IMG/VR virus record: IMGVR_UViG_3300033182_001189 | Location: 1 to 39,936 of that record | DNA: 39,936 nucleotides | Direction: 5' to 3' (one strand) | Source: a virus | Shown here: positions 11,272 through 37,178 of the stretch, one piece after another | Numbering within the stretch: the first letter of the stretch is position 1 | How the letters are laid out: each line of letters opens with the position of its first letter | Notes under the pieces: model-generated | Databases searched by the model: none | Seen by the model: the letters and a program-made list of their open reading frames with translations, nothing else | What the model was told of the DNA's origin: nothing | Position numbers and translations under genes: made by a program

Positions 11272-14200
11272 ATGGCAGATAAAAAAGTAAAGATCTCTAA
11301 TATTCTGGGCAGTCAGATCCCAGATTTCATTCAGGGTGAAAGTCCTCTGTTCAAGGAATTTTTAGAGCAGTACTATGCTTCAGAAGAGCATGAGTATGGT
11401 ACAACTTATCTTGCCGACAATCTTGATGACTTAAAAGATATCTCTAAGATATCCGATATAGTATACGCTGCTGTTCCAGTAGCATTAACTGAAGATACAT
11501 ATCACCTTGATGAAGTAATTAATGTCAATACGACTGAAGGATTTCCAGATACCTATGGTCTAATTAAAATTGACAATGAAATTATTACGTATACTGGAAA
11601 AACTGCAACTTCGTTTACTGGTTGTGTTCGTGGTTTTAGTGGCATATCCAAAATTGAAAGCAGCAGCAATCCAGAATTTTTAACTTTTAGTGATACGGAA
11701 ATTGATTATCACTATTCTGGTTCTACTGTCCAAAACCTTAGTCTGCAGTTTTTAGGACAGTTCTACAAAAAGTTCAAGTATCAATTCCTACCAGGCTTTG
11801 AGAACAGACAGTTTAAGGATGTATCTGTAGAAAATATTCTCTCCAGAGCAAAAGATTTTTATAGTTCAAAGGGAACTGACACTGCATTGAAGATTTTATT
11901 CAATGTTTTATTTGGTAAAAATGTTGAGGTACTAAAACCATTTGATAATACCATTGTTTTATCAGAAGCAGATTGGAGCATTACAGATGATATCATTGTA
12001 GAAGCAATTTCTGGCGATCCAACTAAGTTAACTTCAACTACTTTATTCCAAGGATCTACTTCAAATCCTACTGCTACTGGAGCAATTTCTAATGTAGAGG
12101 AAGTATTTTTAGGAAATAAGAGATATTTTAAACTTTTGCTGTCTAATGATTCAGTTGTCAATACCTTTGATGTTGGCAAAAAGACCAAAGTAACCAGTCT
12201 GACTAGCACTGAAACTGTAGTTACTGTAGATTCCACTGTTGGATTCCCAGAATCTGGAACATTTTACTACTTAGATTCTTTAGGTGAATACTCAGAAGCA
12301 ACTTATACATCCAAATCATACAACCAATTCTTTGGATGTGTCGGTCTTACAACTTCATTAGCAGAAAACACTCCAATTATTGGAGATCAATTTGTATATG
12401 GATTTGAAGATTTTGATACGACAAGCGTCTGCCAAATGAGAATTGTTGGATCAATTAATGGATTCAACAGAAACTTAGGAAATACAAAATATTTCTCAGT
12501 TGGTGATGAAGTATCAGTAAAATATCTTGGTGAAAAAGTAGATCCAGCTGATAAAAAGTTTAATAATTGGTTCTACAATAATGTATCATATACAGATGTT
12601 GATGTAGTAGATCCCTCTACGAATACAATTACAACAAAAGTAAGACACTTCTTACACAAAGGAGACAAAGTTAGTATCCTAAGAAAGTCAACAAGTGCAG
12701 TTGTAGTTGACAATGTAGAAGTTAATGATGTTTCTAGTGATTTAATATTCCAAATTTCTTCTGGAACACTGCAACTTGGTGTTGAATATACCGTAAAGAA
12801 AAATATCAGTTATGCTAAGTCAACTCTGAATTCAAGTTCAGTACTCTCTAACATCCAAAATTCATTCACTGACGAGGAGAGAAACACTTACGTTGCGTTT
12901 TCTGGTCTGCCATCATATGAGTCAATCCAGACAACTAACAGAGCAAAAACATTTACTTCCTCAGACATAAATCAGTCTTCGGACACTATAAACATTTCTC
13001 AGCATGGTTTCTTCAATGGTGAGAAAATATACTATCAATTAGTATCTGGTGTTTCTGGTATTGGAACTGGATACTACTACGTCAATAAGATTGACAATGA
13101 TAACTTCAAATTGACATTAAGTCCATCTTCAATCTATACAAATTCAAATGTAGATCTGACTGGTATTGGTACTACAGATCAGCATATTGTAACTCCTGCT
13201 GATTTGTTTGGACTTAACCTTGAGAATCAGAACAACTTTAAGAGAATATACAGAAACCCAAAGCAAGTCAAAGAAAATAGAAATATTGTTGGTCCAATTG
13301 GTGTTGCACTAAATGGATTGGAACTTTATTCACCAATCTCAAAAGATTCTATTTTCTATGGTCAACTTGAAGGAATTTCAGCACTGGAATCTGGCACTGG
13401 TTATGACATAAACAATCCACCAGAATTGTTAATAAGTGATGACTCTGGTACTGGAGCAGTTGCACATGCAAACTTCAGTGGAAAAATTGAAGAGATTGTT
13501 TTAGAAACCAAAGGATTTAATTACTCAGAAGTCCCATCAGTTAACATTACTGGTGGAAATGGATCTGGTGCAGTATGTGAAGCAAAGATGAGAGGTTACA
13601 CTCATTCTGTTTCATTTACTGACCTTGATGTAGACTTATCTACAGATAGCATCACACTATCAACCCCACACAAATTCTTAGATGGTGAAGAGGTTGTTTA
13701 TGTTGCGTCTGGTACTCCAATTGGTATTGGTAGCACAAACGTAGGATTCTCTACGACTAGACTGTCTGGTGATAATGTTTATTACATTGCGAAGAAGAGT
13801 GATACATCATTCTCACTTGCAACAACAAAAGCAAGAGCCTTAGCAAAGACAAATCTGGTTGACTTTAATGCTTTTGGTAACCAAGACCACACAATTAGGT
13901 CAAAACAGGTCAGAAATATCATTGATAGAATTATTGTAAAGGATAGTGGATCTTCATATCAGAACAAGAAGGTAACTATTGATGCTCAGCAGTATCCACC
14001 TTCAGACCAAAGAGACTTATTCAGCACTTTTGTTGGCATTAACACTCATGATAATTATGTTTATGCAAGAAATCATGACTTTAAAAATGGAGATCAGGTT
14101 GTATACTCCGTAGATGGAACTGCAATTTCTGGATTATCTACAACTTCATACTATAAAGTTACAGTTGTTGATAGAGATAGATTCAAATTAAGTGATGCAG

Positions 14201-17200
14201 GAACTGCATCTACAATAACAAGCACAAACTACGATAGAAAGATATTCGTATCTTTGGGCGATGTTGGAGTAGGAACTCACACATTTGCATACCCAAGTAT
14301 TCAGGTTGTAATTGATGGACTTGTTTCCATTGGATCAAGCACAACCATCCCATCGTACTACAATGCTACTGCAACAGCAAGTGTTAAGGGTGGTGTAAGT
14401 GGAGCATTTATTCAGTCGGGTGGTGTTGGATTTGGTGTCACCGATATCATAAATTATGTGAGAAGACCAGCAATCAGACTCCTGACTGGTAAGAATGCAA
14501 ATATCAAACCAGTTGTTGGGTCCGATGGCACTATAACTAGCGTATTCATTGTAAATTCTGGATCAGAATACACTACCCCACCAAAACTGGAAGTCATTGG
14601 TTCTGGGTCATTTGCAAGATTAAAGGCAAATATTTCTGGTGGACAGATTACATCTGTAGATATTCTAGACGCAGGTAAGAATTATAAAGCAAGTGACACA
14701 TCAATTAAGGTCATTCCAACAGGTGAAGGTGCCAAGTTAAATGCAGAAATCCATGAATGGAAGTTCAATAATCTCAAGAGATACGAGAATGTTATTTCTG
14801 CTACGTATAGAGATACTGTTCAAATAAGATCGGAAGTTTCTTCTAGGGGCAAGAAACTTTCTACTTTCTATCCTGGAAGATTCTACAGAAGTCTGCTTGA
14901 TGACAACGTAGTATTGACCTCATCTGGTTATGAGGAAAAGACAACTGGTCTTGCTCATTCTCCTATTATTGGTTGGGCCTATGATGGAAATCCAATCTAT
15001 GGTCCATATGGTAATGGAAAAGCAATTCCAGACTCTTCTGGAACTGGTGGAATTAAGAAGATTTATTCTAGTTACTCAGAAAATATAGTTTCAAACACTG
15101 GACTCAGACCTCCATTCGGTTCTGGTTATTTCACTCAGGACTACATTTACGATGCGAATGGTGATCTTGACGAGTACAATGGAAGATACATTGTCAACTT
15201 AGACTTCCCTAATGGAACTTATGCATATTTTTCAACTCTGGACTTAAATGATAACTTATCATATCCATATGTAACATTTAAGCATAGAAATGGAACTGAT
15301 GAATTCAATTACAATGTATTAGTAGACCAATCTGATGCTCATATTAACAGTGGACTCTATAAGAGAAATGTATCGCATCTCGGATTAAATGAGGCATCAA
15401 GAAGATATCCATTCCTTTTTGATTCGCTAGATTCAAATCCAGTCTTACAAGTAGAATCAGTAGACTCTGCAAAAATTACTCAAATTGATGTTGTATCACC
15501 TGGATCATCTTATAAAGTAGGAGAATCCCTCACTTTCAATCAGAATGAACTTGATTGTGAAATCAAAGAGGTATTGGGCAAGACTATTGTATCAATAGCA
15601 ACTTCAGATCTTATATCTGATAATGTTACATTCTCAGTTAAAGAAAATACAATTACTGGATTTACAACAGTTGCTCACAACTTTGTGGATGGGGACACTG
15701 TAGAGATCTCTGGTATTTCTTCTTCCCTGTATAAAGACCTGGAAGGATTCCGAGTTGTTGGAGTCAGTACAATTAATGCATCTCTGTCTGTTGCTCTTGG
15801 TACAACTTCGGTAACTGGACTCAGCACTTTTATTAGTATTTCTGAACCAACCAGCACCAAGAAATTTGAGAAGAACGATACCATCAAACTTGGTTCTGAG
15901 GAGGTCCTAATTACCTCTGTAGACCGTGTTAACAACAAGTATGGTGTCCTTAGGGCAAGGAATGGTACAACAGGTTCTGCACACACAGAGAGTACTCTCG
16001 TAACGAAACTTTCTAAGAAGTTTACGTTCAATGTAAACAAAAAATTAGAAAATAAGAACGTAGAGACAGGTTACTCGCAGTTCTTTAGTGCAACGGGTTC
16101 CGTTGGCATTGGAACAACATATTCTTCGGTTGTAGTTGGAACTGCTGGAAGCACGAACGTTACAAAATCAATTCCACCAAGATCAATCTATCTCCCATAT
16201 CATAGATTCAATACTGGCGATGAATTATCTTATGTTTCGTACAGTGGAACTATTACTGCTTCATCTTCTGATGCATTAACTCCAACGTTTAACTTAGATG
16301 CATTTGATAAACTGTATTGTGTTAAGTTGAATGATGAATATATTGGTGTTTCTACAGCAAAAGTTGGATTCACTACCAACTATGTTTATTTCACTGCTGT
16401 TACTGGAGATTCACACAACTTTGAAGTCATCAAGACTAATTTAACTGGATCTGCTAAGAAAGTTTCTGCTACTGTTACCCTGGATACACAGCATTCACTG
16501 GCGGTTGGTGATGGAGTTAGATTAAACGTAAAACCAAGCAGAACACAAAACTTTGACTTTAGATTTAATGATTCAATCAAAAAACTTGTCGTAAACCCAG
16601 TTTCCTTTGCATCTACTGCAATTGGCGTTGGAACTACAAATTCATCCATCACTTTGAGTAATCATGACTTCAATACAGGAGACATTGTTGTTTATGTGAA
16701 CTCGGTTGGAATCGCTACTCCTCTCCAGAATAACGGAATCTATTATGTGATTAAGGAATCGGATGACACGATCAAGTTAGCTGAGACTGAGTATGATGCT
16801 TTATCGTTCCCATACACACATATTGGAATCACCACATATGGATCAGGAACTCATGAAATTGCCAAGATCAATCCGAAATTAGAATTCTATAGAGGAAATA
16901 ATGTTTCTATTGCAGTATCTCATGTCAGTTTGGTAGACTATGACGTAAACTTCTATACTGATAATCAGTTCAAGACTAGGTATGAGTCTGGATCAATCAT
17001 CAAGAAAGGAACATTTGGTGACTTAAATCCAAGCACTGAGATTTCTATCAGTGTTTCTGATACGTTACCAGAAAGTCTTTTCTACAGAGTAGAGGGTGAT
17101 GACTTAAATTACACTAATACCTTCCCATCATCTGCAAATACAGACGTTGACAATTACTCTTCAATTGATATCTTAAATTCTAAATTCAACAAGTTACATA

Positions 17201-20200
17201 CTGTTTCTGGGATCGGAAGCACCACATTTGAGTTTACTCTTGTTGGTAGTGCAGAAACAAACTCTTATACTTCCTCTGGATTTAGTTCTGCGATCTATTC
17301 AACCAATTCCCCAACGGAAACTGGTGGAATTTATTCAGTAAGAATTTCTAACTTCGGAAAACCAACAAAAGTACTTCCACAATTGACTTCCATTGGATCC
17401 ACCACTGGATCAAATGCTCTGATTTCGGTAAAATCAAATTCTATTGGAAGAATTGTTGATAGTGAAGTCATTCGTCAAGGATTAGAATTCACAGAAGACA
17501 AGACACTTGCACCAAAAGCAGACTCAAATCTGGTACTGAACTTAAAGAATGTATTCACTCTAAAGTCAGTTGGTGTAACCACTGGCGGTAAAAATTATAC
17601 TGGAGCACCAACGGTTGTTGCAATTGGAAACTCTTCAATTCTAACCGATACAACTATTCAAGGTAACTCAGTATTTTCAGTTGAAGTTCTGTCCAGTGAT
17701 AGTAACCTTTCGGAAGATCTTAGAGTAATTCCTACAAATAACTCAAATGGTGTTGGTGTAATCAACGCTACTTCATCCTTTGCAACGAATACATTATTCT
17801 TAAGAGCACCCATCATTGGATTTACAGAATTCCCATTTGCGGTAAATGATGAAATCTATGTTGAAAATATCAAGATTACCAACTCAGCAGATGGTTATAA
17901 TTCAAGTGATTATGGTTATCGTAACTTTACCGTTACTGGTATCAATACTGTAAGTGGTTCCGAGAGCATTACATACTCCATTGCTGGAATTGGAAGCACT
18001 GGTGGATCATATGACCCAACTAGCACCTTTGGTAGAGTCATTAAGTCCAACAACTTAGCAGTTCTTCAACCAGAATTTGAAAAAGTCAAGTTCTTTGAGG
18101 GCGAAAAGATTACATCTCAAGATGGAAGTGCCACTGGAGTTGTTGCTAAGAATGGATGGGATCCAGAAGCACAAACACTCAAGTTAACTGATGTTACTGG
18201 GAAGTTTGAAAAGGAAGACGTTATTGTTGGAAAAACAAATAACTTCAAATCAACAGTATCTGATATCTTCTCATTTGATTTTGACTTAAGTGTTGGAAGT
18301 ATTGTTGAGGATGAGAGTACTTGGAAAACTGATACTGGAAAATTAAATTCCGATTTGCAAAGAATTCATGATAGTGACTACTATCAAAGATTCTCATACT
18401 CAGTAAGAGGTGAGGTTCCATATCAAAATTGGTCAGAACCAGTTAATAGTCTGACACATGTCTCTGGATATAAGAATTTTGCTAATTTGGAAATTATCAA
18501 TGGAATTGGAAACACAGTTGGAATGAGTATAACTGATACTCAGATTGATTTGAATGTTGAGGTCAATAGTCTGGCATCTGTACATTCTATCAGTCATTAT
18601 GATCTTGTTTCCGAAGATACCACTGATTCTTCACTTTCCAAGATTGTTAAGTTTGATTCAAAAGTTATTACTGATTATAACGAGTCAAGAACAAATAAAG
18701 TTCTCTTGATTGATGATATTAGTCCACAATTCACAGGATTCGTAACTTCTACTGGTGGTGGAATCGTAGGTCTCTCTACTTTTGCACTCTTCACTGGTGG
18801 TGATACTCTATTCTATCACACCTTTGATCCTACAGGAATTGATACTTCTACGTCAACAATTACAATCCCAAGACACAATTTCAATACTGGGGAGCAATTA
18901 GTATACTCACCAACAAATAATGATCTGAATAGTGGATCTTCTATTGGAATCGTCACCACGAGTTCACTGGGAATAGGCATAGGAACCACCAGTATCCTCC
19001 CAGAGACGGTCTATGCGATTAGGGTGACGGAAGATAAGTTACAACTCGCTATAGGTGCCTCGGAGGCGACTGCAGGAACTGCTGTTACATTTACTACACT
19101 CACTGGAATTGGACTCACGCACAGTTTAGAAGTTGATAGTGATCTTGCAAACACAAGAACAATTATAACATTAGACAATATCATCCAAAGCCCAATATCA
19201 AGAAAGGACGTTTCAGTTTCTCTGTCATCTGCTGTTGGTATAGGTTCTACTGTAGTATTCTTGAATGACGTTTCAAACGTTGTAGGTAAGTCTTTACTTA
19301 AGATTGAAGATGAGATCATTAGAGTTGAACTCGTTGGCGTTGGAGCAACTAATTCTCTTGATGTCATTCGTGGACAAATGGGAACAGTTGCGGCAGCACA
19401 CACTGTTGGTGCAGCAGTTACAGTTCTCTCTGGAGATTATAGAATCCACCATGGAAACATATACTTCACTGAATCACCATATGGTCCTGCTGGAATTGGA
19501 TCACTCACTACCAGAACTTCATTCTCTGGAAGAGCATTCTATCGTCTGAATTATGACACAAACCTGATCATTGATGATATTTCAGAATCATTTGATGGTG
19601 CAACTGATAAGTTTAACCTGACTTCAAACTCACAAGGAATTAGTGGAATTCAGTCTAGTTTCGGTGCTATTCTAATCAATAACATCTTCCAAAGACCTTT
19701 CTATGGTGATGTTGGATCAATCTTAGAATCTGATTATCAGATTGTAGGTACAGGTCAAACAATTGACTTCACTGGAACTGGTGTTGAGGATCTTCCAAAA
19801 GGTGGAATCATTAATGAATTTGATGTTGGAATTGGAAGTGGTTATCAAGTACCAAGAAGAGCACTTGCAACAGCAGTTGTCTCTGCTGGCGGAACTATCC
19901 AATCTATCGGTCTCTCCACTGGAGGATCTGGTTACATTGGTGTGCCTAGAGTCTCTATTGCGGATACTCTTGGTGTTGGAGTTGGTGCCTCTGTAATTGC
20001 ATCTGTTACCGCTGGATTGGTCACTTCATTTACAATTGCAGTTGCTGGTAGTGGTTACACAAGCACAAATCCACCTCTTGTTGTAATTGATGAACCAAAA
20101 CCATACAAAAATATTCCACTCTCTGGTGGTCAGGGATCTGGAGCTAAGATGGATGTTGTTGTTGGAACTGGAGGAAGCGTAGTATCCTTTGATATCTCTG

Positions 20201-21573: not shown

Positions 21574-21579
21574 TTTAAG

Positions 21580-21605: not shown

Positions 21606-23171
21606 ATGCCAGCTATAATCACTGACCAATTTAGAATATTAAATGCTGAGACTTTTGCAAAGAGTTTCACAGGGATTGGTACAACCACAAATTATTACTA
21701 CACATTTCTGGGACATCCAAATCCCACCAATGTGGATATTGATAATTATGGTGATTCTAATTGGTCAACTAGTCCACCAGATCCAAGAGATTCATTTGAG
21801 CAGGAAGACTCATATCATGACAGTATGCTCTTCCTCAAGAGAGTAACTGCAAGCGATGTTGCTAGAATTATCACAAGATATACCTGGCAGTCTGGTATAA
21901 CTTATGACATGTATAGAAATAATTATGACATTGATAATGCTGCACCCCAGACAAACGCAAAAACACTGTACGAATCTCGTTTCTACGTTGTAAACTCTGA
22001 GTATAAGGTTTATATTTGTTTGAACAATGGTGCAAACCCAGACTATCCAAATGGACAAAAGTCTCTGAATGAACCAAACTTTGTAGACACTGTTCCCCAA
22101 CAAGCAGGTAATGGTGCTGATGGATATCTTTGGAAGTATCTCTATACAATTTCTCCAGCAGATATCGTAAAGTTCACAACTGATAATTATATTCCACTCC
22201 CAAGTAATTGGGGAGATGCTAATACCGAAGATGTAAAGAATGCTGCAGTTGAAGGCAAGTTAGAAACAATTGTTATTAAGAATAGAGGTAGTGGATATTC
22301 TCTGAGTGGAGGTTCTTCTACTGGAACAGTCTCCAATATTCCAATTCTTGGTGACGGCACTGGTGGATTTGCATCAGTCTCAATCACTGGTGGAGAAATC
22401 ACCAGCGTTCAGGTCACAAATGGTGGATCTGGTTATACCAAGGCACTTTTAAATTTCGGCACTACATCATCTGGATCGGTTGCAGTTGTAAGTGGAAGCG
22501 GTGGTCAATTTGAAGTAATCATTCCACCAAAAGGTGGACATGGTAAAGATGTATATCGTGAACTTGGATCACATAGAGTCATGGTTTACTCCAAGTACGA
22601 TGCTGATCCTGATTATGTGATCGGAAACACCTTCTCTCGTGTTGGTATCGTAAAGAATCCAATCACTTATGGAAGTCAGACGGACATAATAAATACTTCT
22701 ACCGCAACTAATCTTGGGGCGTTGAAGTTGACACCAATCGGTGCTGGCAATACGTCAGACACTTTATATCCTGAGAATGCATTAATCACACAAACTGTTG
22801 GTGTTGGGTCTACTGCTGTTGGTTATGTTGCTTCCTGGGATAAAAACACAGGAGTTTTGAGATATTATCAACCAGTCGGTCTTTCTACATTAGCAACATA
22901 TGATTATAAACTTTATGATTTTGTTGGTGCTGCAGCAACGGTGAATTGTACATCTATTACTGGAGCGGCACTGATACCAGACACAAATTTTAATACCAAC
23001 ACCATTCAAGTTGGCGGAAAAATCGTAAATCTGGGTCAAACATTTACTTCAGGAAAAGCAAATCCAGATGTAAAGAAATATTCAGGTGAAATCATCTATA
23101 TTGACAATAGAGCACCTATAACGAGATCATCCTCGCAAAAAGAAGAAGTAAAAATTGTAGTAGAGTTCTAA
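21606..23171 (+). CDS. 8: Baseplate wedge protein gp8
   Basis: 521 aa, longer than T4 gp8 (334 aa). The N-terminal half has family features: MPAIITDQFRILNAETFAKS at the start, the acidic SYHDSMLFLKRV, FYVVNSEYKVYICLNNG, and DGYLWKYLYTISPAD (about residues 171-185). An added Gly-rich beta module with GSGYSLSGG and GSGYTKALLNFG lies near 218-281. A C-terminal part, VKKYSGEIIYIDNRAPITR, closes the protein. gp8 is a wedge dimer contacting gp7 and gp10. The next gene begins 4 nt after the stop. Confidence 0.9.
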   Translation: MPAIITDQFRILNAETFAKSFTGIGTTTNYYYTFLGHPNPTNVDIDNYGDSNWSTSPPDPRDSFEQEDSYHDSMLFLKRVTASDVARIITRYTWQSGITYDMYRNNYDIDNAAPQTNAKTLYESRFYVVNSEYKVYICLNNGANPDYPNGQKSLNEPNFVDTVPQQAGNGADGYLWKYLYTISPADIVKFTTDNYIPLPSNWGDANTEDVKNAAVEGKLETIVIKNRGSGYSLSGGSSTGTVSNIPILGDGTGGFASVSITGGEITSVQVTNGGSGYTKALLNFGTTSSGSVAVVSGSGGQFEVIIPPKGGHGKDVYRELGSHRVMVYSKYDADPDYVIGNTFSRVGIVKNPITYGSQTDIINTSTATNLGALKLTPIGAGNTSDTLYPENALITQTVGVGSTAVGYVASWDKNTGVLRYYQPVGLSTLATYDYKLYDFVGAAATVNCTSITGAALIPDTNFNTNTIQVGGKIVNLGQTFTSGKANPDVKKYSGEIIYIDNRAPITRSSSQKEEVKIVVEF

Positions 23172-26100: not shown

Positions 26101-29100
26101 AGTTACAACTCTTTAGATTACTCAATTGATATTCCATTTGCTATTGATAGAAGAGCATCAGATTTCATTGACATCAGACCAAGAGTAGACGCATATTCAA
26201 CTTCATCAACGAATTCTCCATTCTCTTTTGCTAGCAGATCATTCTCTAGTTCTTCTTCTGAGACCGTAGTTTCAAATAAAACTATCGTTGCAGACTACTC
26301 ATACTATCTTGGTAGAGTTGATAGACTGTACTTAACAAAGGACGGTATCTTTGAAGTCAAAAAGGGAGAACCAGCAGAATATCCAAAGGCACCAACTGCA
26401 AACACTGAAGGTTTTGAAGTTGCTGTCATTTCTATGACTCCATACGTCTTCAACGCAACTATTGATTCCAGCGTGAAGACTATCCCACACAAGAGATTCA
26501 CGATGAGTGATATCGGTGGTCTTGAGAGCAGAATCAAGAATCTTGAAGAGTATACAACACTGTCACTGTTAGAAACAGATACTAAGAATCTCTCAATTAA
26601 GGACCCAAATACTGGATTGGATAAATTCAAGTCTGGTTTCTTTGTTGATAACTTCAGAAATCACAGAACTCATAATCTCAGTGGTGAGTCATTCTTTGAT
26701 ATTGATACGCAGAGAGGTGAGTGTAGACCTAGATCTGCAGAAAGAAACGTATCACTTACGTTTGAAACTAAATCGTCCCTGTCTGACCCAGTAAATGCAG
26801 ACTATCGTTGGATTGAAGACTTTGAAGACGCAAATATCACTAGAGGTGGAAATGGATTAACAATTGCATACAGTGAAGTTGAATTTGTAAATCAACCACT
26901 GGCAACCAGAACAGAAAACCTGAACCCATTCCACATTGCACTCTTTATTGGTTCCATTGCTCTGACTCCTGCTTCTGATTTCTGGATGGAAGAGGTCATC
27001 CTTGCAACTCCAGACGTTGTTAAGATTACTTCGCCATTTGATGGCATGGCATCTCTTCTTGGCGTTGAAGATCGTGAGAACGGTGGCATGGCTGCAAGTT
27101 ATTGGAACTCTCATGAACAAACTTGGACTGGTAGAGAACTGATTAAGGAAGAAGTTCTTAGAAATGAGGAAGTTGGAAGACAAACAATTTCTGATGTAAC
27201 TTTAAGAGGTAATGGAATCAGAAGAATTACTACTGATGCAGTAACCAGAGAAGTTGAAACTCTTAATACATTCAATGAAACTGGTATTGATAGAGAGTTT
27301 GGATTTGAACTGACTGCTGGTGAAGAAGTTGTAAGTCTCGGCAATAGAGTTGTTGGAGTAGATGTACTCTTCAATTGCAGATCAAGAAATATTGAAGTTG
27401 TTGGTAAGAGACTGAAACCAAACACAAGATATTTCGTTTTCATGGAAAACGTAGATCTGTCGCAATATGCAGTTCCAAAGTTCCTCCCAATTACAATGGT
27501 AAGAGGATCATTTGCAACTGGAGACATTGTTGATACGGTAACCCCACCTGGTTCATCTACTGCAAGTATCCGAGTTCGTTTAGCACAACCAAACCATCTG
27601 TTTGGGACATTCAATAAACCAAGTGACACTCGTGGTTCCACAACTCAATACTCTGGAACTAGTTCACAGTTGAACATTGATACTGCTGGTCTTGCCTCTC
27701 AGACAAGACCTGATCACCTTGGTTGGGTGAAATCTGGTAGCAAACTCGTCAATACAACTGGAACTGCAGAAGCAACTGTAGACAACATTCAGTTAATTTC
27801 TGACGATGAAGGAAATCTGATTTTCTCACTCCATATTCCTGATCCAAAGGTTGCAAGTAATCCTAAGTTCACCACTGGAAGCAATACAATTAGACTCACT
27901 ACGAGTTCTGTGAATGCAAATATACTTGATCCAGGTGAAAGTTCTGCAGAAGCAGTATTTACTGCTACAGGATATGCACTGAATTCACAAGAGCAGACCT
28001 TATCAATTAAGACTGCAGATGTAGAGAGAAAGCAGATTGGAAGTGATCAACCAATCACGAGAGTTACTCAAGAACTTGAAGAAGAAACTATCACTGTTCA
28101 AGAGACGAGAGACACTGGATGGTATGATCCTCTTGCACAATCATTCTTGGTTGATAGAAACAAGAGTCAGGATGGAGTCTTTATTACTGGTGGTGAAGTT
28201 TTCTTCAAGACAAAGGATGACAATGTTGCGGTAACGGTTCAAATTAGAACCATGAGAGATGGAACACCAACAACTACTATCGTTCCATACGGAGAAGTTA
28301 ACATTAAACCATCTGATGTACAACTTTCAGATGATGGAAGTGTTCCAACAAGATTCACATTTGACACTCCAGTTTATCTCCAAAGTGGATATGAGTATGC
28401 ATTAGTTCTTGTTGCACCAACAGAGAAATACTTGGCATTCATCACAAGAATGGGTGAAGAGGATCTTCTCCTCAAGACTGTATACAATAGACAACCATAT
28501 CTGGGATCTCTCTTCAAGTCACAAAATAGTTCAACTTGGACTCCAAGCCAACTTGAAGACCTTAAGTTCAAACTCTTTAAGGCGAAGTTCGTAACTAATA
28601 CCTCATCGTTTGTTAAGTTCTACAATAATGAACTTCCTCTCGGTCTGATCAGAAAGACCAACCCAGTTGTTGCATATTCTAAAAGACAATATGTGTCAAT
28701 TGCAAATACAACCACTGTATTTGATCAAGGGAATACAATTACACAAGGAACTCATACCGCAAACGTATTCTCCTCTGGTGGTCCTATTGCACTCGGTACT
28801 ACTTCAACAACTCTTGCATATGCAGGAATTGGTCTGACTGATGGAACATTTACTGGAGTTGGTTTTGAATCTCTGACTGGATTCGGTAATTCTTGCCTTG
28901 CAACCATTACGGTTTCAAGTGGTGCTGTTTCCTCAATCAATGTTACTGACTCTGGTTCTGGTTATGCAGTTGGAGATCTCTTACTTGCAAATCAAATTGG
29001 AGCGACTGGCACTGGAGTCAGAGCAATCGTAGGAATTGTAACTCAGACAAATCTGATTGTTGTTGATGATGTTAGCAGCAATATTGTTGCTGGCACTGCA

Positions 29101-30417
29101 ATGACCCATTATAACTCCAGTGGAACTGGTTCTATAATCTCTGCACCAACTTCGGTCACAAATGATTCAATCAGAGATGGTTATACAATGCTGTTTGATC
29201 ACCATAATCATGGTATGCACGCAAGCACAAACAAAGTTAAAGTAGTCAATTTTGCAAGTGATGTTGCACCAACCTCACTCTCTTCGGCAATTGATGACGA
29301 CACGACAGTTATTACCGTTGCAGATGCAACTGAATTTGCTAACTTTGAGGGTTCACCTGTTGGTGCTGCAAATACTGGATACCTTAAGATTGATAAGGAA
29401 GTTATTTCTTACAATACTGTCTCTGGAAATGACATTACGATCACAAATAGAGTCATTGATTCAAGTCTGAAGTCAAATCATGCTCAAAATGCTGCGGTCT
29501 ATAAGTACGAATTCAATTCAATCTCTCTCCGCAAGATCAATAAAGAGCACAATATGGATCCAAGAGATAAGACATTCAATAGTTACTATCTCAAGTTGGA
29601 TGATACCACTAAGACCTTTGGTTCCACAAAGTCTGGCGGTGGCAATGCTCTGGAAGTTTCACAAAACATCCCATTTGAGTATATTGATCCACAGTTCAAT
29701 ATGATTACACCATCTGGCACTAACGTTACCGCAAGAATTAAAACAACTTCTGGAACAAGTATCAGTGGATCTGAGGGATCATTCCAAGATAAAGGTTATG
29801 AAAGTGTTTCACTGAACAACTTGAATCGTTTAGATGACCCAAGAATCATTGCATCTAAGGTCAACGAGTATAATTTACTTGGAGATTCTAAGTCGTTTAC
29901 TATTGAACTTGCGCTTTCAACCACGAAAGAAGATGTATCACCATTGATTGATCTTGACAGAGCAAACGTTATTGTAATCAGCAACCTTGTTGATAATAAA
30001 GTAACCGATTTTGAAACAGACAGTAGAGTCAGAATTCCTGGTTCTGATCCAAACTCTGCAATCTACGAAACACAAAAGATTCTCCTTGAATTCCCATCCA
30101 ATTCACTTTATGTCCAGTTTGATGGACATAGAGAAGCAGAAGGAGACATCCGTGTATTCTACAAACTCTTCAGAAGTGATGGTTCTGATGCTCAGCAAGT
30201 TTACATTCCATTCAATACTGACGGATCACCTGATAAGACAGTAAATCCAAACCAAACTGAAAATGGTTTCAGTGAGTACAAGTTTACTGCTGAAAATACC
30301 CCTCAGTTCAGTGGATTCATGATCAAGGTTGTAATGACTTCAACGAGTCAAGCAAAACCACCAAGAATCAAAAACTTCAGAGCAATTGCATTAAGATCAT
30401 TCTCAGCAAATGAATAA
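23176..30417 (+). CDS. Large DUF4815-type virion protein, probable gp10 counterpart (2413 aa)
   Basis: The N-terminal region carries the DUF4815 pattern: YFDDFNEDKNYNKVLFKPGY, then QSRELTTLQSILQNQIEKFG and FFKEGSVVIPGGTFYDDNYF within about residues 12-75. It later has VDRLYLTKDGIFEVKKGEP and FTMSDIGGLESRIKNLEEYT, a short coiled coil. Around 1651 comes DPLAQSFLVDRNKSQDGVFI followed by an FFKTKDD/VQIR module, then PYLGSLFKSQNSSTWTPSQ. Near 1909-1955 is a GSGY module and near 2042-2111 an 'IDKEVISY' module, both shared with gp7. Position after gp8 suggests the gp10 role of linking wedge to outer fibres, but homology to T4 gp10 cannot be shown here. It could be a fibre or peripheral baseplate protein. 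Confidence 0.85.
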   Translation: MTQNTNLNVSPYFDDFNEDKNYNKVLFKPGYPIQSRELTTLQSILQNQIEKFGQHFFKEGSVVIPGGTFYDDNYFAVRIDPNFLSIPVSSYISYLVSNNIEIEGQTSGVRATVVNSLTYLESEDGYDTLYVKYTRSGSDGTTKVFQNGENLITLSDINFSSTSISANNQFARCIISDSTKIGSSASLSEGVFFIRGYFVKVPSSTIILDQYSNSPSYRVGLTITEEIVTASSQNSDLYDNAQGFSNESAPGADRFRITASLSKKLLTDTNDLDFVELMRVENGVLQTFVNKTDYNVFKDELARRTYDESGDYYVKQFALDVRESLNDRIGNNGVYLDTQTTQNGNTPSNNIFTIQVSPGKAYVRGFEIDKTSTTSIDVVKPRTTKSKENVSLPIKIGNVIDVENVYGSPTIGFSTTYSVDLHDRRLADTGLLDGSSTQIGKARVFDFNQKNITGVSTTTYEVRLLDIQTFTNITVGFAITVAADAYVKGKYSGSNGFVATAVSGGTTISLQDVKGEFQINEPLEVNGLDVGRNITVVRDYDLTDVKAIHKAVGVSTFAANVALNREKKSFTETSQFTVTSGGTVTSTSVSDFRDAVKVGDIVRYSESGATLPTLNRVTTVTESNFTVAGIASVTGVCDGGVTASDLTTTDLDILIPSLDVNVDPGYRVTLQNKYISSINLLDSSYIVRKQLTGNVTGTTFTFQLSGLGDNDLYFEPFTESNYILTWESGQKELIRAAQVTFSTDLREMTIVALSRTGNVTLTAACRRSKLTSKSKSIQRCSNLIVDRSKYQGSGIGSTTFGDGLTYSTVYGTRVQDNEISLNVPDISRILAIFESNDSANPDLPSIVVSSQSDTFTNNVIVGEQFIGSESGAVARVVDIVSGTQLNFVYENDKFFEYGESVTLKTSGITATISTLLAGDRNISKNYTLDDGQRLEFCDYGKIIRKKNIAEPTRKLRIIFDYFTNNESSGTIESVNSYNSLDYSIDIPFAIDRRASDFIDIRPRVDAYSTSSTNSPFSFASRSFSSSSSETVVSNKTIVADYSYYLGRVDRLYLTKDGIFEVKKGEPAEYPKAPTANTEGFEVAVISMTPYVFNATIDSSVKTIPHKRFTMSDIGGLESRIKNLEEYTTLSLLETDTKNLSIKDPNTGLDKFKSGFFVDNFRNHRTHNLSGESFFDIDTQRGECRPRSAERNVSLTFETKSSLSDPVNADYRWIEDFEDANITRGGNGLTIAYSEVEFVNQPLATRTENLNPFHIALFIGSIALTPASDFWMEEVILATPDVVKITSPFDGMASLLGVEDRENGGMAASYWNSHEQTWTGRELIKEEVLRNEEVGRQTISDVTLRGNGIRRITTDAVTREVETLNTFNETGIDREFGFELTAGEEVVSLGNRVVGVDVLFNCRSRNIEVVGKRLKPNTRYFVFMENVDLSQYAVPKFLPITMVRGSFATGDIVDTVTPPGSSTASIRVRLAQPNHLFGTFNKPSDTRGSTTQYSGTSSQLNIDTAGLASQTRPDHLGWVKSGSKLVNTTGTAEATVDNIQLISDDEGNLIFSLHIPDPKVASNPKFTTGSNTIRLTTSSVNANILDPGESSAEAVFTATGYALNSQEQTLSIKTADVERKQIGSDQPITRVTQELEEETITVQETRDTGWYDPLAQSFLVDRNKSQDGVFITGGEVFFKTKDDNVAVTVQIRTMRDGTPTTTIVPYGEVNIKPSDVQLSDDGSVPTRFTFDTPVYLQSGYEYALVLVAPTEKYLAFITRMGEEDLLLKTVYNRQPYLGSLFKSQNSSTWTPSQLEDLKFKLFKAKFVTNTSSFVKFYNNELPLGLIRKTNPVVAYSKRQYVSIANTTTVFDQGNTITQGTHTANVFSSGGPIALGTTSTTLAYAGIGLTDGTFTGVGFESLTGFGNSCLATITVSSGAVSSINVTDSGSGYAVGDLLLANQIGATGTGVRAIVGIVTQTNLIVVDDVSSNIVAGTAMTHYNSSGTGSIISAPTSVTNDSIRDGYTMLFDHHNHGMHASTNKVKVVNFASDVAPTSLSSAIDDDTTVITVADATEFANFEGSPVGAANTGYLKIDKEVISYNTVSGNDITITNRVIDSSLKSNHAQNAAVYKYEFNSISLRKINKEHNMDPRDKTFNSYYLKLDDTTKTFGSTKSGGGNALEVSQNIPFEYIDPQFNMITPSGTNVTARIKTTSGTSISGSEGSFQDKGYESVSLNNLNRLDDPRIIASKVNEYNLLGDSKSFTIELALSTTKEDVSPLIDLDRANVIVISNLVDNKVTDFETDSRVRIPGSDPNSAIYETQKILLEFPSNSLYVQFDGHREAEGDIRVFYKLFRSDGSDAQQVYIPFNTDGSPDKTVNPNQTENGFSEYKFTAENTPQFSGFMIKVVMTSTSQAKPPRIKNFRAIALRSFSANE

Positions 30418-30634: not shown

Positions 30635-30636
30635 TT

Positions 30637-30644: not shown

Positions 30645-30674
30645 TCTAGAGAAAGATCCTATCTGATTGTAGTA

Positions 30675-31013: not shown

Positions 31014-31018
31014 AAAAT

Positions 31019-31246: not shown

Positions 31247-31249
31247 GCC

Positions 31250-33664
31250 ATGGCAAGTATTATAAGAGTAAAAAGGTCTACAGGCACATTAGCTCCTGCT
31301 AGTCTCAATTTTGGTGAACTTGGTCTTACAGTTGGAGTAGGTACTCACGGCAATAAAGGTGGAAGACTTTTTGCTGGAGACAACTCACAGAACGCACAAG
31401 TAGTCGGCGGTAGATATTACACCGATCTGTTAAGTATTGCACCAGGACTTGTTGCTGGACAAGCAAACCCAACAACTGCGTCAAATGGTTTTGTTGCAAT
31501 TCTTGATCAGAACAGAAAAGTTGATCAATGGAATGTAGATAATATCACCATAGATGGAAATACTATTTCATCTACAGATACAGATGGAGATATTAACTTA
31601 GATCCAAATGGAACTGGTGAAGTTTCAATTCCCGATGACACATATCTTACTTTTGGTACTAGTAAGGACACCAAAATCAGATATGATGAAGTAACGGATG
31701 ATAGACTTGAGGTAGAGGGTGCCGATTGGAACTATGCAGATGGCGTAGCGATCAGCATCAGTGATGTAACTGCATCATCAAGTACAACCACTGGAGCACT
31801 TACTGTAACTGGTGGTGTTGGATTTGCGACCGACTTGAATGTTGGTGGTGCTGTAGATATTGACTTTGATCTGAATGTTGATGGTGGAGACATCACAACA
31901 AATCAGGCAACGTTTAACTTACTTAATGCAAATGCAACAACAGTAAATGCATTTGGTGCTGCTACAAATATTGATATTGGTGCTGCCACTGGCACAATGT
32001 CAATTAATAATGCAACTGTTGACCTTGATGGAGATCTCAATGTTGATGGTGGAGACTTAACCACCAATCAAACGACCTTTAATCTCTTAAATGCTAATGC
32101 AACTACAGTAAATGCATTCAGCGATGCAACTAATATTTCTATTGGTGCAGCAACTGGAATTGCTACTGTTAGAAATGCTTCAGTTGATCTTGATGGAGAT
32201 TTGAATGTTGATGGTGGGAATATTACCACCAATCTAACTGGTACATTTAATTTACTGAATACAAATGCAACCGATATTAATGCATTCGGTGCTGCAATTA
32301 CGATTGATATCGGTGCCGCAACTGGTCAAGTAACCATTGGATCCACAGATCAAGCAACTAGTGTAGATAGTGGTGCATTAGAAGTTGAAGGTGGTGTTGG
32401 AATTGCCAAGAACCTTCATGTTGGTGGTGATTTCATACTTACTGGAAATCAAAATTTAACAGGTGTTACTACTTTCCAGAATGATGTAACGATTAACACT
32501 AATTTAACAGTCCAAGGAAATACTGTTCTTGGAAATGGTGTTTCTGACCAAGTAGAAATTACTGGTATCACAACGATCACTGGTAACATCACTCACGTTG
32601 GTGGATTTGATAATACTGGTGGAGCAACGTTTGATAATGTTGGAATTTCTTCAAACGTTATCTCAACTAGATCTGGTGGTGGTAACACTCTCTTCATTGA
32701 CCCATTCCCCGATGGACTGAGCAACGAAGGAACTGTTATCATCAAAGGTGATCTGCAAGTTGACGGTACTACAACCACTGTTAATTCAAGTTCAGTTACA
32801 GTCAACGAACCAATCTTCAACCTTGGAGATGTAACTAGTGTAAGAACTGTCATGGCGACAGTTCAAAGTGGCGTTTCTACCGTTACTGTTGATTCCGTTG
32901 TTGGAATTAATACTGGAGATATTCTCACGGTTGCTAATATTGATGGTGCTGGATTCTCAACTGTCACAAGTTATGATGATTCTTCTAAAGTAATTACATT
33001 TAGCGGTACTACTACTGCTGGTATTACTACAACGACTCAAATAACAGTCACACATGCATTTGACACCAACACGGATCGTGGTATCTCATTTGACTATAAT
33101 ACAAGTTCAGGAACAGGAAATAATAAGGTAGGTTTCTTCGGATACAATGATAGTACTGGAGAAAACAGTTCTGCAGTTGCAAGAGCATGGACTTATATTC
33201 CAGATGCAACTGTTAGCAACAGTGTTGTAACTGGTACTAGAGGTTTCCTTGACATTAAGGGTATCTATTACCAAACTGGTGATTATAATACTCATGGTGT
33301 AACATACTTTGATGCTGATGGACTTCAGACATCAACAAATGCGCCTTCTGATGGATCTAATACCAAAACATCCACTCAAATTTTGACCGCAGTTACTGAA
33401 ATTACTCTTGCACTTCCTTCAACTGCGACTATTGCTGCTGGGGCTCAAGTAACTCAGCAAAACAATAGTTCTGCATATGGTGTTTGCAAGACAACCATTA
33501 CTGCTGGAAGTACTTTAACTCTGATTGGAGTTCAAGGAACATTCAACACAACAGATGATTTGGTTGTTGATGGAGTATCAATTTCAATTACTCCAAGCAC
33601 CGTCACAACGGTTTATACGAGCAAACCAATGTGGACTGACACTTTAGATGGAGGAACCTTCTAG
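31250..33664 (+). CDS. Tail fibre-like protein with 55-aa repeats (804 aa)
   Basis: Starts MASIIRVKRSTGTLAPASLN, a typical fibre N-terminus. It has GALTVTGGVGFATDLNVGG (about 181-200) and a relative, GALEVEGGVGIAKNLHVGGD, after three near-identical 55-residue repeats (31856-32353; key pieces DLDGDLNVDGG and FNLLNANATTVNAF). The C-terminal half has GTRGFLDIKGIYYQTG, FDADGLQTSTNAP and several beta-solenoid-like stretches. Probably a trimeric host-recognition fibre; receptor unknown. The repeats make it prone to length change by recombination. No chaperone-like or peptidase end domain is obvious. Confidence 0.8.
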   Translation: MASIIRVKRSTGTLAPASLNFGELGLTVGVGTHGNKGGRLFAGDNSQNAQVVGGRYYTDLLSIAPGLVAGQANPTTASNGFVAILDQNRKVDQWNVDNITIDGNTISSTDTDGDINLDPNGTGEVSIPDDTYLTFGTSKDTKIRYDEVTDDRLEVEGADWNYADGVAISISDVTASSSTTTGALTVTGGVGFATDLNVGGAVDIDFDLNVDGGDITTNQATFNLLNANATTVNAFGAATNIDIGAATGTMSINNATVDLDGDLNVDGGDLTTNQTTFNLLNANATTVNAFSDATNISIGAATGIATVRNASVDLDGDLNVDGGNITTNLTGTFNLLNTNATDINAFGAAITIDIGAATGQVTIGSTDQATSVDSGALEVEGGVGIAKNLHVGGDFILTGNQNLTGVTTFQNDVTINTNLTVQGNTVLGNGVSDQVEITGITTITGNITHVGGFDNTGGATFDNVGISSNVISTRSGGGNTLFIDPFPDGLSNEGTVIIKGDLQVDGTTTTVNSSSVTVNEPIFNLGDVTSVRTVMATVQSGVSTVTVDSVVGINTGDILTVANIDGAGFSTVTSYDDSSKVITFSGTTTAGITTTTQITVTHAFDTNTDRGISFDYNTSSGTGNNKVGFFGYNDSTGENSSAVARAWTYIPDATVSNSVVTGTRGFLDIKGIYYQTGDYNTHGVTYFDADGLQTSTNAPSDGSNTKTSTQILTAVTEITLALPSTATIAAGAQVTQQNNSSAYGVCKTTITAGSTLTLIGVQGTFNTTDDLVVDGVSISITPSTVTTVYTSKPMWTDTLDGGTF
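31856..32353 (+). repeat. Three 165-bp coding repeats in the fibre gene
   Basis: Units start at 31856, 32021 and 32186, each encoding D-x-D-x-DLNVDGG ... FNLLN-NAT. The first two are exactly 165 bp, and the third gains one codon (Gly in LTGTFNLLN). DNA identity is high but with synonymous changes, so the duplications are not very recent. Confidence 0.85.
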
Positions 33665-33668
33665 ACTT

Positions 33669-33854: not shown

Positions 33855-34666
33855 GTCAACCAACAACTAGACAAGGTTTAATTGATTATTGTCTAAGGAG
33901 ACTTGGATATCCTGTTTTGGAAATTAACGTGGATGATGATCAGATTGATGATCTCGTTGATGATGCAATTCAACACTTTCAGGAATATCACTTTGATGGT
34001 ATTGAAAGGGTATTCCTGAAGCATAAAATTACTGAATCAGAAAAAGAAACACTCAAGACTGGAATAACAACCACAACTGCTTCATCAACAGTTGGTATCA
34101 CAACTGTGTCTTGGGACCAGAATACAAACTTTCTACAACTACCAGATTATGTTCTTGGAGTCAATCAGGTCTTCAAGATGGATAATAGTACAATCTCTAG
34201 TGGATTGTTCAATCTGAAATATCAGTTATTCCTCAATGACCTTTACTATTATGGAGCACTTGATCTTTTAAATTATGCAATGACAAAAACATATCTGGAA
34301 GATCTTAGCAGATTGATTACTCCAGATGTACAGTTACGTTTTAATAAGAAGAGACATAGATTATATCTTGACATTGACTATGCAAGTTTTAGTTCAGACA
34401 CTTATATCGTTCTTGATTGCTATAGACTTGTAGATCCATTAGAAGCGGATAAAGTATACAACGACTGGTGGTTGAAAAAATATCTTACAGCCTTGATTAA
34501 GAGGCAGTGGGGACAAAACTTAATTAAATTCCAAGGTGTTATGCTTCCAGGTGGAGTTCAACTCAATGGAAGACAAATTTATGATGATGCAATCAGAGAA
34601 GTTGAAGAGTTAGAAGAGGAACTCAGAGATACATACGAAATTCCACCTCTTGACATGATAGGATGA
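33851..34666 (+). CDS. 13: Neck protein gp13
   Basis: 271 aa, slightly shorter than T4 gp13 (309 aa). Family-like stretches are RQGLIDYCLRRLGYPVLEIN, DDAIQHFQEYHFDGIERVF, LNDLYYYGALDLLNYAMTKT and the C-terminal QIYDDAIREVEELEEELRDT. gp13 with gp14 closes the portal after packaging and lets the tail join the head. It is tightly spaced with the coiled-coil gene before and gp14 after (4 nt). Confidence 0.93.
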   Translation: MSQPTTRQGLIDYCLRRLGYPVLEINVDDDQIDDLVDDAIQHFQEYHFDGIERVFLKHKITESEKETLKTGITTTTASSTVGITTVSWDQNTNFLQLPDYVLGVNQVFKMDNSTISSGLFNLKYQLFLNDLYYYGALDLLNYAMTKTYLEDLSRLITPDVQLRFNKKRHRLYLDIDYASFSSDTYIVLDCYRLVDPLEADKVYNDWWLKKYLTALIKRQWGQNLIKFQGVMLPGGVQLNGRQIYDDAIREVEELEEELRDTYEIPPLDMIG

Positions 34667-34670
34667 AGTT

Positions 34671-36098
34671 ATGCCACTCAACTCATATTTCCTTCAAGGG
34701 TCACAAAGCGAACAAAGATTAGTACAAGATCTAATCAACGAGCAATTAAAAATTTATGGGCAAGATGTAGTTTATCTTCCCAGAAAAATGGTCAACAAGA
34801 AGACCATTCTAAGAGAAGTTGTAGCATCAACGTTTGATGATTCATTCAGAATGGAGGCTTATCTCCTCAACTACCAAGGTTTTGAGGGTAGTGGAGATAT
34901 CCTATCAAAATTTGGTGTACAGACCACTGATGCTGTCACTTTCATTATTTCAAAGGAAAGATATGAAGATTTCATTTCACCATTTCTTATAAACCAATCA
35001 GATATTCAATTATCAACTAGACCACAAGAAGGAGATTTAATATATTTCCCACTTGACAATACAATGTTTGAGATCAAGTATGTTGAAGGTAAGAAACCAT
35101 TCTATCAACTAAACAATCTATATGTTTATCAGTTGAGTTGTGAGGTAATGGATTATGCTCTTGATGATGATATTGACACAAGCATTGAAGAAGTAGACGA
35201 ATCTGTAGTTGATTTTGGTTACATTACGAAGTTGACCCTTGCTGGTGCAGGAGCGTCAACATCATCTGTAGACGTACAACTTGCAAAGACATTGAGTGTA
35301 CTGCAGACTGGAAAATCTGTATCTGCAATTGATTTGATTAATGATGGAACAGGGTATACGGTTCCACCACTAATCGGGATCGCAACTGCACCATCTACAG
35401 GCATTAATGCTACTGCTGTTGCGATCATGACCAGTAGAACTGGTCAGGTTGGATCATCCATTGATAGAATTGAAATCACAAACCCTGGATTTGGTTACAC
35501 CGAAGCACCAATAATTACTATTCGTAGTCAAAATGCGTTCGGAACTGGTGCAGCGGCAACAGCAATTATTAATGAAGGTTCCTTGGGTGCAATCACAATC
35601 AACGATGGTGGTAGTGGTTATGGTTCAACTCCAGTGGTATCAATCAGCACTGCACCTTCTGGTGGAATAAATGCATCTGCAACTGCAGTGGTTAATACTC
35701 TTGGTGAAGTAAGCGCAATTAGATTCACAAATGCTGGTGCAGGATATACACTTGCACCTACTATTAGTGTTTCTTCACCTAATACTGGTGGAATTGGAAC
35801 TGGAGATTATCTCTTCAAAGAGTTGGTTAGAGGAGTATCTACTGGTACGACAGCATACGTCGCAGAATGGGATTCTGACGTATCAATACTTAAGGTCACC
35901 ACCGTTTCTGGTAACTTTGCACTTGGTGAAGTCTTGGTTGGTATTGGAACAACTCAAAATGGTTCTGATGCGAGTTACACCATTCGGAGCATTTCAACCC
36001 AAGACGAATATGATACCTTTGCAGAAAATATAGAAGTAGAATCAGAAGCAGATGCAATTCTGGATTTCACTGAAAAGAACCCATTTGGCGAATTCTAA
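34671..36098 (+). CDS. 14: Neck protein gp14 with inserted GSGY modules
   Basis: 475 aa against 256 aa for T4 gp14. The N-terminal part (NSYFLQGSQSEQRLVQDLIN, then LPRKMVNKKTILREVVASTF) and the final DTFAENIEVESEADAILDF/NPFGEF are characteristic of gp14. Between them, about residues 217-373, lie four repeats of 'IDLINDGTGYTVPP', 'IEITNPGFGYTEAP', 'ITINDGGSGYGSTP' and 'IRFTNAGAGYTLAP', the same module seen in gp7 and gp8. In T4, gp14 and gp13 complete the head neck. The insert may decorate the neck in place of whiskers, which is inference. Confidence 0.9.
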   Translation: MPLNSYFLQGSQSEQRLVQDLINEQLKIYGQDVVYLPRKMVNKKTILREVVASTFDDSFRMEAYLLNYQGFEGSGDILSKFGVQTTDAVTFIISKERYEDFISPFLINQSDIQLSTRPQEGDLIYFPLDNTMFEIKYVEGKKPFYQLNNLYVYQLSCEVMDYALDDDIDTSIEEVDESVVDFGYITKLTLAGAGASTSSVDVQLAKTLSVLQTGKSVSAIDLINDGTGYTVPPLIGIATAPSTGINATAVAIMTSRTGQVGSSIDRIEITNPGFGYTEAPIITIRSQNAFGTGAAATAIINEGSLGAITINDGGSGYGSTPVVSISTAPSGGINASATAVVNTLGEVSAIRFTNAGAGYTLAPTISVSSPNTGGIGTGDYLFKELVRGVSTGTTAYVAEWDSDVSILKVTTVSGNFALGEVLVGIGTTQNGSDASYTIRSISTQDEYDTFAENIEVESEADAILDFTEKNPFGEF

Positions 36099-36101
36099 AT
36101 A
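36094..36101 (+). promoter_or_regulatory. Possible late promoter variant before gp15
   Basis: TCTAAATA, one mismatch to NATAAATA, spans the gp14 stop and lies 24 nt before the gp15 ATG. Weak evidence. Confidence 0.3.
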
Positions 36102-36125
36102 GTTAGTATACACTGACACGATATC

Positions 36126-37178
36126 ATGTTAGGAACATATCACTATCACGAGATTATAAGAAAGACAATCATTGCTTTTGGAACTCTCTTCAACACGATT
36201 GAGATCCGCCACAAAAAGCAAGATGGGTCTGCTTATTCTACCGTGAAAGTTCCTATTGCATATGGACCAATTGAAAAGTTCCTGGCAAGACTTGAGCAGA
36301 AACCAGACATCAGAAAAAGAGTTGCAATTACTCTTCCCAGATTAGCATTTGAATTATCTAGTATTCAATATGATAATACTAGAAAGGTTTCAACAATGCA
36401 AACCTTTAAAACTTTCACAAAAGACGGCACAAAACTTGCAAAGAAAGTCTTTATGCCAGTCCCATATAATTTGGGATTTAGACTTTCAATCATGTCACAA
36501 TATAATGAAGATGCCCTGCAAATTATAGAACAGATTCTCCCTATTTTCCAACCATCATTCAATGTGAGCGTTGATTTAGTAGAATCAATTGGAGAAAAGA
36601 GAGATATCCCAATGGTTCTTGATTCTGTTTCCTTTGATGACAATTATGACTCTGGTTATGATGAAAAGAGAGTTATTATTCATACTTTAGACTTTACTGC
36701 AAAGACATATCTGTTTGGTCCTATTGCCGATAGTTCAGAAGGACTTATCAAAAAGGTACAAATTGATTACCACACCAGTACAGATAAAGTAACTGCAAAG
36801 AGAGAACTTAGATACGTTGCTGAACCAAGAGCAATTAAAGATTACAATGATGATGCAGCAACTACTCTTGCAGAAGACATCAATAGCACTGTGACTAAGT
36901 TCCAAGTCACAAATGCATCAAGTCTTTCAGTTGATAGTTACATTGCAATTCAAAATGAATTGATGTACATCAAGGAAATTGATAATGAAACAATAACTGT
37001 TAGAAGGGCTGAAGATGGATCAATTAGTGATTCCTACATCCAAGGAACTGCAATTGATGCGGTCAATAGTGATGATGATGCACTAATTGAAGTTGGAGAC
37101 GACTTTGGATTCAGCGAAACTCGTTATGATTTTGGTGATGGAAGATCTTATAGTACGACTAAGGGAGTAGATGTATGA
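36126..37178 (+). CDS. 15: Tail completion and sheath stabiliser protein gp15
   Basis: 350 aa against 272 aa for T4 gp15. The first two thirds match: MLGTYHYHEIIRKTIIAFGT, IRHKKQDGSAYSTVKVPIAY, KRVAITLPRLAFEL and VIIHTLDFTAKTYLFGPI. The last ~110 residues are an extension with KFQVTNASSLSVDSYIAIQN and ELMYIKEIDNETITVRRAED, matching the 'iDxEii...RG' module of gp7. gp15 forms the hexameric cap on the tail tube and sheath and contacts the neck. ATGA overlap with gp16 suggests coupled translation. Confidence 0.92.
   Translation: MLGTYHYHEIIRKTIIAFGTLFNTIEIRHKKQDGSAYSTVKVPIAYGPIEKFLARLEQKPDIRKRVAITLPRLAFELSSIQYDNTRKVSTMQTFKTFTKDGTKLAKKVFMPVPYNLGFRLSIMSQYNEDALQIIEQILPIFQPSFNVSVDLVESIGEKRDIPMVLDSVSFDDNYDSGYDEKRVIIHTLDFTAKTYLFGPIADSSEGLIKKVQIDYHTSTDKVTAKRELRYVAEPRAIKDYNDDAATTLAEDINSTVTKFQVTNASSLSVDSYIAIQNELMYIKEIDNETITVRRAEDGSISDSYIQGTAIDAVNSDDDALIEVGDDFGFSETRYDFGDGRSYSTTKGVDV

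Follow-up and report, generated by a model that had tools for sequence, protein, structure and literature searches.

The window, by which we mean the whole stretch of 39,936 nucleotides analysed here, is a fragment from IMG/VR, 39.9 kb long, and belongs to a T4-like marine virus of Kyanoviridae type. At the DNA level, its terminase gene shares 84.5% identity with that of Synechococcus phage S-SKS1, its gp14 is 49.8% identical to that of S-SCSM2R, and the gene order gp6, gp7, gp8, DUF4815 protein, gp13, gp14 and gp15 is the same in S-SM2 and P-SSM2. Searches of Pfam and PHROGs demonstrated that gp7, gp8, the DUF4815 protein, gp14 and gp15 are true members of their families. The PF11649 T4_neck-protein domain occupies the N-terminal part of gp14 (residues 10-158, E 2.2e-27), which also matches the T4 gp14 structure 9mkb (E 1.8e-20); gp15 contains the PF16724 tail sheath stabiliser domain (residues 5-243, E 7.8e-81), gp8 contains PF09215 (E 5.6e-12) and aligns with T4 gp8 on both flanks of its insertions, and the DUF4815 protein exceeds the cut-off for PF16075 (E 3.7e-53). 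In NCBIfam, gp14, gp15 and gp8 were without a match and gp7 had one tail-domain match below the cut-off. The proteins of the window fall as ordinary members into PHROG 460 (gp14), 438 (gp8), 2885 (gp7) and 358 (DUF4815 protein), families that do not name the shared modules described below. The gp14 orthologue of S-SM1 has been found by mass spectrometry in purified virions (PMC3037559), and therefore the gp14 protein reaches the particle in that relative.

Small modules in the structural proteins

Small repeated units, designated A to D, are distributed over these proteins (Table 1). Module A is a three-strand unit of about 40 residues whose true signature is GxGY, the literal GSGYxxxP being rare, and module B is a unit of about 65 residues with the pattern 'iDxEii…RG'. 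The original prediction had reported these two, and the residues it named are present at every position it quoted; most of its A sites were recovered, except those at 15475 (5.7 bits, E 0.8) and 17560 (7.5 bits, E 0.2), and so were its B sites, with 12210 backed only by other copies in gp7 and large proteins and found by neither hhalign nor the leave-out HMM. Two further modules had escaped it. Module C is a third cross-protein module, recovered with leave-out HMMs in gp7, gp8, the DUF4815 protein and gp14, and probable in orf804. Module D ('HxFxxGdxVxY...YYVi') is repeated six times inside gp7 and also occurs in other large cyanophage tail or virion proteins, such as the S-SM2 tail fibre and a 3410-aa protein of S-SCSM2R.

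Table 1. Positions of the host reading frames and of modules A to D in the window
Feature	Position	Strand	Support or remark
gp7 ORF	11272-21573		3433 aa (T4 gp7 1032 aa)
gp7 B 1 (IDNEIITYTG...CVRG)	11485..11652	+	HMM 61.2 bits; leave-out 15.4 bits
gp7 B 2, weak	12193..12378	+	30.6 bits joint HMM; support from other gp7/large-protein copies only
gp7 D 1	12982..13185	+	62.5 bits
gp7 A 1-2, tandem pair	13375..13590	+	HMM 21.9, 29.2 bits; hhalign vs gp14 array 96%
gp7 D 2	13645..13893	+	59.7 bits
gp7 D 3	14053..14283	+	61.7 bits
gp7 A 3-4, tandem pair	14533..14751	+	HMM 30.9, 18.1 bits; hhalign vs gp14 94.5%, vs gp8 96.9%
gp7 B 3	15802..16002	+	52.8 bits; hhalign vs gp15 96%
gp7 D 4	16183..16419	+	53.4 bits
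gp7 D 5	16642..16857	+	69.8 bits
gp7 C	18100..18261	+	48.4 bits; leave-out 16.1 bits
gp7 D 6	18853..19107	+	49.7 bits
gp7 B 4	19222..19419	+	54.1 bits; hhalign vs gp15 96%; pLDDT 74-87, blocks 21-90
gp7 A 5-6, confident predicted beta array (gp7 ~2846-3013)	19897..20163	+	HMM 20.9, 24.4 bits; hhalign vs gp14 97.1%
gp8 ORF	21606-23171		
gp8 A 1-2, segment absent in T4 gp8	22263..22523	+	HMM 19.5, 17.0 bits; hhalign; T4 gp8 alignment
gp8 C	22791..22943	+	39.4 bits; leave-out 13.5 bits
DUF4815 protein ORF	23176-30417		
DUF4815-protein C 1, weak	23479..23661	+	23.2 bits joint HMM; absent from leave-out list
DUF4815-protein C 2	24631..24780	+	40.7 bits joint HMM
DUF4815-protein C 3	25759..25914	+	51.4 bits; leave-out 9.8 bits, E 0.04
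DUF4815-protein A	28927..29034	+	HMM 21.9 bits; leave-out 15.3 bits; hhalign vs gp8 94%
DUF4815-protein B	29278..29499	+	59.5 bits; leave-out 19.9 bits
orf804 C, probable	33449..33598	+	40.9 bits joint HMM; fails leave-out
gp14 ORF	34671-36098		
gp14 A array, four units	35319..35801	+	HMM 28-43 bits; leave-out 16-34 bits; AlphaFold; alignment
gp14 C, directly 3' of A array	35820..35966	+	50.9 bits; leave-out 37 bits
gp15 ORF	36126-37178		
gp15 B, in linker ahead of conserved C-terminal tail	36867..37055	+	60.2 bits; leave-out 23.1 bits

Several other features of these genes were recorded. A YHYH domain (PF14240; 14935-15249, residues 1222-1326, E 1.5e-18) lies inside gp7 between A and D modules, and in five relatives an A unit of gp7 is interrupted, after residue ~2899, by a nested block of about 100 residues (...CSRDNYxSxHxYPRxTDP...). 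The solved phage protein ORF65 (PDB 9euf) is distantly related to the DUF4815 protein, in which homology can be detected up to residue 1807, a point that precedes the A and B modules; tblastn also revealed relatives in phages of Staphylococcus, Listeria, Bacillus and Salmonella. The product of orf804 (31250-33664) is tail-fibre-like, with internal 'DLNVDGGDLTTNQTTFNLLNANATTVNAF' repeats and the probable C module near its C-terminus.

Homology of the modules across proteins

For each protein we built a query-anchored family alignment out of relatives from IMG/VR and from cyanophages, and the resulting profiles were compared with each other in hhalign, reversed profiles serving as the control; in addition, leave-one-protein-out HMMs, each trained without the protein under test, were run alongside decoys. 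The profile-profile comparison, which the original prediction had proposed as a check, gave probabilities of 87-97% for A and about 94-96% for B, with reversed profiles at or below 5.5% throughout. For A, the gp14 family scored 87% against gp8 and 96%, 94.5% and 97% against gp7 680-800, 1040-1190 and 2630-2970, respectively, and gp8 scored 93.5% against the DUF4815 protein; for B, gp15 scored 93.6% against the DUF4815 protein and 96.2% and 96.3% against gp7 1390-1600 and 2630-2970. Within these wider segments, the matches concerned gp7 2850-2970 for A and gp7 1500-1580 and 2645-2720 for B. The leave-out HMMs recovered A in gp14 (all four window copies and 20 of the 21 panel copies), gp7, gp8 and the DUF4815 protein, and B in gp15 (4/4), the DUF4815 protein (6/7) and gp7 (three copies), and no decoy fell below E 0.05. 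The unit sets for these HMMs had first been gathered jointly, a mild circularity that is answered by hhalign, by matches within one contig and by a PHROG scan: in related records gp14 matches a gp7-sized frame of ~3400 aa on the same contig, and the isolated 198-aa gp14 A array, as one plain sequence, matched 20 PHROG families at E<0.05, among them neck, baseplate wedge (gp7, gp8), hub/lysozyme, tail fibre and virion proteins.

The likeness might alternatively be a matter of composition, a Gly/Ser/Thr-rich bias of beta-repeats without homology. The units do have a low-complexity flavour, and a profile made from gp14 single units alone proved too weak and barely detected the other proteins. However, reversed profiles and shuffled decoys yielded nothing comparable, and isolated modules match many families in PHROG, an independent library, so that this explanation is scarcely credible and was rejected. 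Judged from sequence profiles, A is homologous among gp7, gp8, the DUF4815 protein and gp14, and B among gp7, the DUF4815 protein and gp15; hhalign, the leave-out HMMs and the PHROG scan thus agree with the central claim of the original prediction, that the same modules are present in different core proteins of one virion.

None of the four modules has a model in Pfam, and isolated A, B and C had no meaningful Pfam match at E<=5, whether to Ig-like, BACON or known carbohydrate-binding families. The portions of the phage genome-mosaicism and neck literature that we consulted contained no description of these modules. As far as we have found, they are an undescribed example of a principle already known from phage Ig-like domains. 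Repeated small beta modules on structural proteins are familiar from the Ig-like and BACON accessory domains of phages, such as T4 Hoc and the BACON repeats of crAssphage, which have been linked to the decoration of surfaces and to weak binding; A, B and C differ in matching no Pfam model and in sitting, within one phage group, inside core proteins of the neck, the baseplate and the S-WAM1 sheath. Phage domain mosaicism likewise involves unrelated structural proteins with homologous domains, mostly ancient, but the analysis there was based on ECOD domains and put its emphasis on endolysins and receptor-binding proteins (PMC10684548), whereas A, B and C, which are without Pfam models, occur in core tail and neck proteins.

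Insertion sites and age of the modules

Sites were compared by alignment with T4, S-RIM8 and P-SSM2. In gp14, the T4-like core is followed by four A units, one C and a C-terminal peptide (DFTExNPFG) that is conserved among cyanophages. In gp8, two A units, a middle segment and a C module stand between the core and the C-terminus common to T4, with A and C occupying segments missing from T4 gp8. In gp15, the T4-like core is followed by one B and the tail; this B is missing in P-SSM2 and S-RIM8, and the P-SSM2 protein retains both flanks. The gp15 B therefore behaves as a discrete linker cassette, because the B-less P-SSM2 protein still has its tail. The original prediction placed the modules where these proteins exceed their T4 sizes, which the alignments bear out for gp14, gp15 and gp8; for gp7, only a patch of about 40 residues aligns with T4 gp7. 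A 25-kb stretch of T4, running from within gp5 to the beginning of gp67, yielded no module. In the complete S-SM2 genome, modules were found in six ORFs, all of them tail or virion genes (annotated gp7, VrlC/DUF4815 protein, gp14, gp15, virion structural protein and tail fibre), with a borderline C in gp8 outside this count.

Presence varies among relatives. Four A units and one C were found in 45 of the 50 gp14 orthologues examined, and in S-WAM1 gp14 the C is present and the A array was not detected. The A module of the DUF4815 protein, present in the window, was not detected in any of six reference cyanophages, and the B of the same protein is present in 6/6 panel cyanophages. The annotated tail sheath protein of S-WAM1 (932 aa) contains B twice (residues 103-161 and 179-246). 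Domain I of T4 gp18 (residues 98-188), a beta-barrel of six strands, projects outward from the tail, is free of contacts between subunits and is where retracted fibres bind (PMC3004832). The S-WAM1 B pair (103-246) sits at this site and replaces domain I, so that the place of a protruding beta-barrel insertion in T4 is held by B in S-WAM1, which is the best evidence for a module position on the outside. Residues 102-118 of T4 gp18 form an A-like hairpin, 'TISTPGSNYAVGDKITV' (7.1 bits, versus 5.7 for the best of 1000 shuffles), which may possibly be a distant relative of A; the match covers about 17 residues, a short hairpin only, and hhalign probabilities ranged from <1% to 72% depending on the partner (the best were 38% and 72%, most were <3%).

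The nearest match of a module was the same protein in another genome for 66 of 98 A, 30 of 33 B and 34 of 39 C copies, and another protein encoded by the same genome for only 2/98, 1/33 and 0/39, respectively. On the B tree, protein labels required six changes (shuffled mean 14.0) and genome labels 26. Copies cluster by protein and position, not by genome, and therefore the sharing predates the genera compared; module sharing is, by these neighbour and tree patterns, ancient, with slow gain and loss since then. Recent within-genome copying, for which a module tree had been suggested as a check, was rejected on the nearest matches and on the tree labels. Of the proposal that the modules are mobile or duplicated parts, what endures is that they are discrete and insertable, as seen in gp15 with and without B, in the A of the DUF4815 protein of the window and in the B of the S-WAM1 sheath; any mobility would be ancient. 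The modules also mostly evolve faster than the cores, with mean identities of 59% for B versus 78% for the core in gp15, 53-74% for A versus 82% in gp14, and 44-49% for A versus 62% in gp8, the exception being gp8 C (61%).

Predicted fold, probable exposure and possible roles

Structure prediction, also put forward in the original prediction, returned confident beta structure for A, each unit having roughly three strands in the gp14 model (residues 201-370, pLDDT 79-94 for the most part) as well as in the gp7 segment (pLDDT 76-93 over blocks 221-380). The gp14 core was modelled poorly, and the A array is not placeable relative to the neck ring. Against BFVD, the modelled gp7 segment matched the tail sheath of S-WAM1 at E 7.5e-6 and a neck protein from a cyanophage at E 2e-5; in the PDB, Foldseek gave no match at E<=0.001 for the gp14 and gp7 models, and a search with the A3 profile gave three matches, none significant. 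The gp7 segment holding B resembles tailspike or depolymerase beta-barrels (PDB 4y9v, 9k4a, 4ru4 and 7w1d; Foldseek probability up to 1.00, E 0.03-0.9), and the B profile independently matches depolymerase 9k4a at residues 432-465 (E 0.002). The E-values are weak, and those barrels belong to receptor-binding enzymes, whereas B belongs to neck, baseplate and sheath proteins.

Our data suggest a model whereby A, B and C, all of them beta-rich (D is known so far from gp7 and large tail or virion proteins only), were inserted at peripheral sites of otherwise unrelated T4-type neck and baseplate proteins before the Kyanoviridae compared here split. They were then passed on at those sites, now and then gained or lost, without disturbing the cores or the C-terminal segments used in assembly. 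We consider it likely that A, B and C are such inherited, solvent-exposed decorations of the tail and neck, already in place before these cyanophages diverged. In this virus the modules are most likely exposed and would provide extra virion surface for weak contacts, as Ig-like domains do in other phages; the common surface coat envisaged in the original prediction thus finds indirect backing in the segments absent from T4, the faster divergence and the domain I site of the S-WAM1 sheath. As a conjecture, these contacts might involve host envelope polysaccharide, fibre docking or particles. The glycan-binding coat of the original prediction would be a hypothesis of this kind: the modules matched no carbohydrate-binding family, and the likeness of B to tailspike and depolymerase beta-barrels is structural only.

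The modules might instead reinforce the tail, bridging neighbouring subunits or rings (gp14-gp15, wedge-wedge) and stabilising it without adhesion. The C-terminal arm of T4 gp14 contacts gp15 (PMC12270204), the A array of cyanophages directly precedes the conserved C-terminal segment of gp14, and nearly all the gp14 orthologues examined retain the array. Reinforcement is nevertheless unlikely, given that the modules mostly diverge faster than the cores, that gp15 can do without B in P-SSM2 and S-RIM8 and S-WAM1 gp14 lacks a detectable A, and that the sheath site used in S-WAM1 has no inter-subunit contacts in T4. We regard as more improbable still that the modules are largely neutral passengers, spread among late virion genes by intragenic recombination and without a common function; their variable copy number and presence, and the block nested in gp7 A of relatives, would fit such a history, but the modules have stayed in the same positions in divergent genera and their beta units are folded and conserved, which suggests selection for keeping them.

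Extending the favoured reading of inherited, exposed decorations, the three or four beta-module families may together form a common outer tail coat in marine T4-like cyanophages, giving most of the tail the same weakly adhesive surface, which T4 would lack save perhaps for one hairpin in sheath domain I. We offer this only tentatively and with considerable doubt; if true, one kit would have been placed in the neck, the sheath stabiliser, the baseplate and, in some phages, the sheath itself. In Kyanoviridae, gp7 reaches about 5200 codons (P-SSM2, S-SCSM2R), and much of the sequence of such 'giant structural proteins' resolves into a few reusable domains that Pfam does not model. Annotations passed on through such modules, from neck to fibre to baseplate, will mislead. 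Together, these findings suggest that marine T4-like phages re-surface their tails by means of shared modules.
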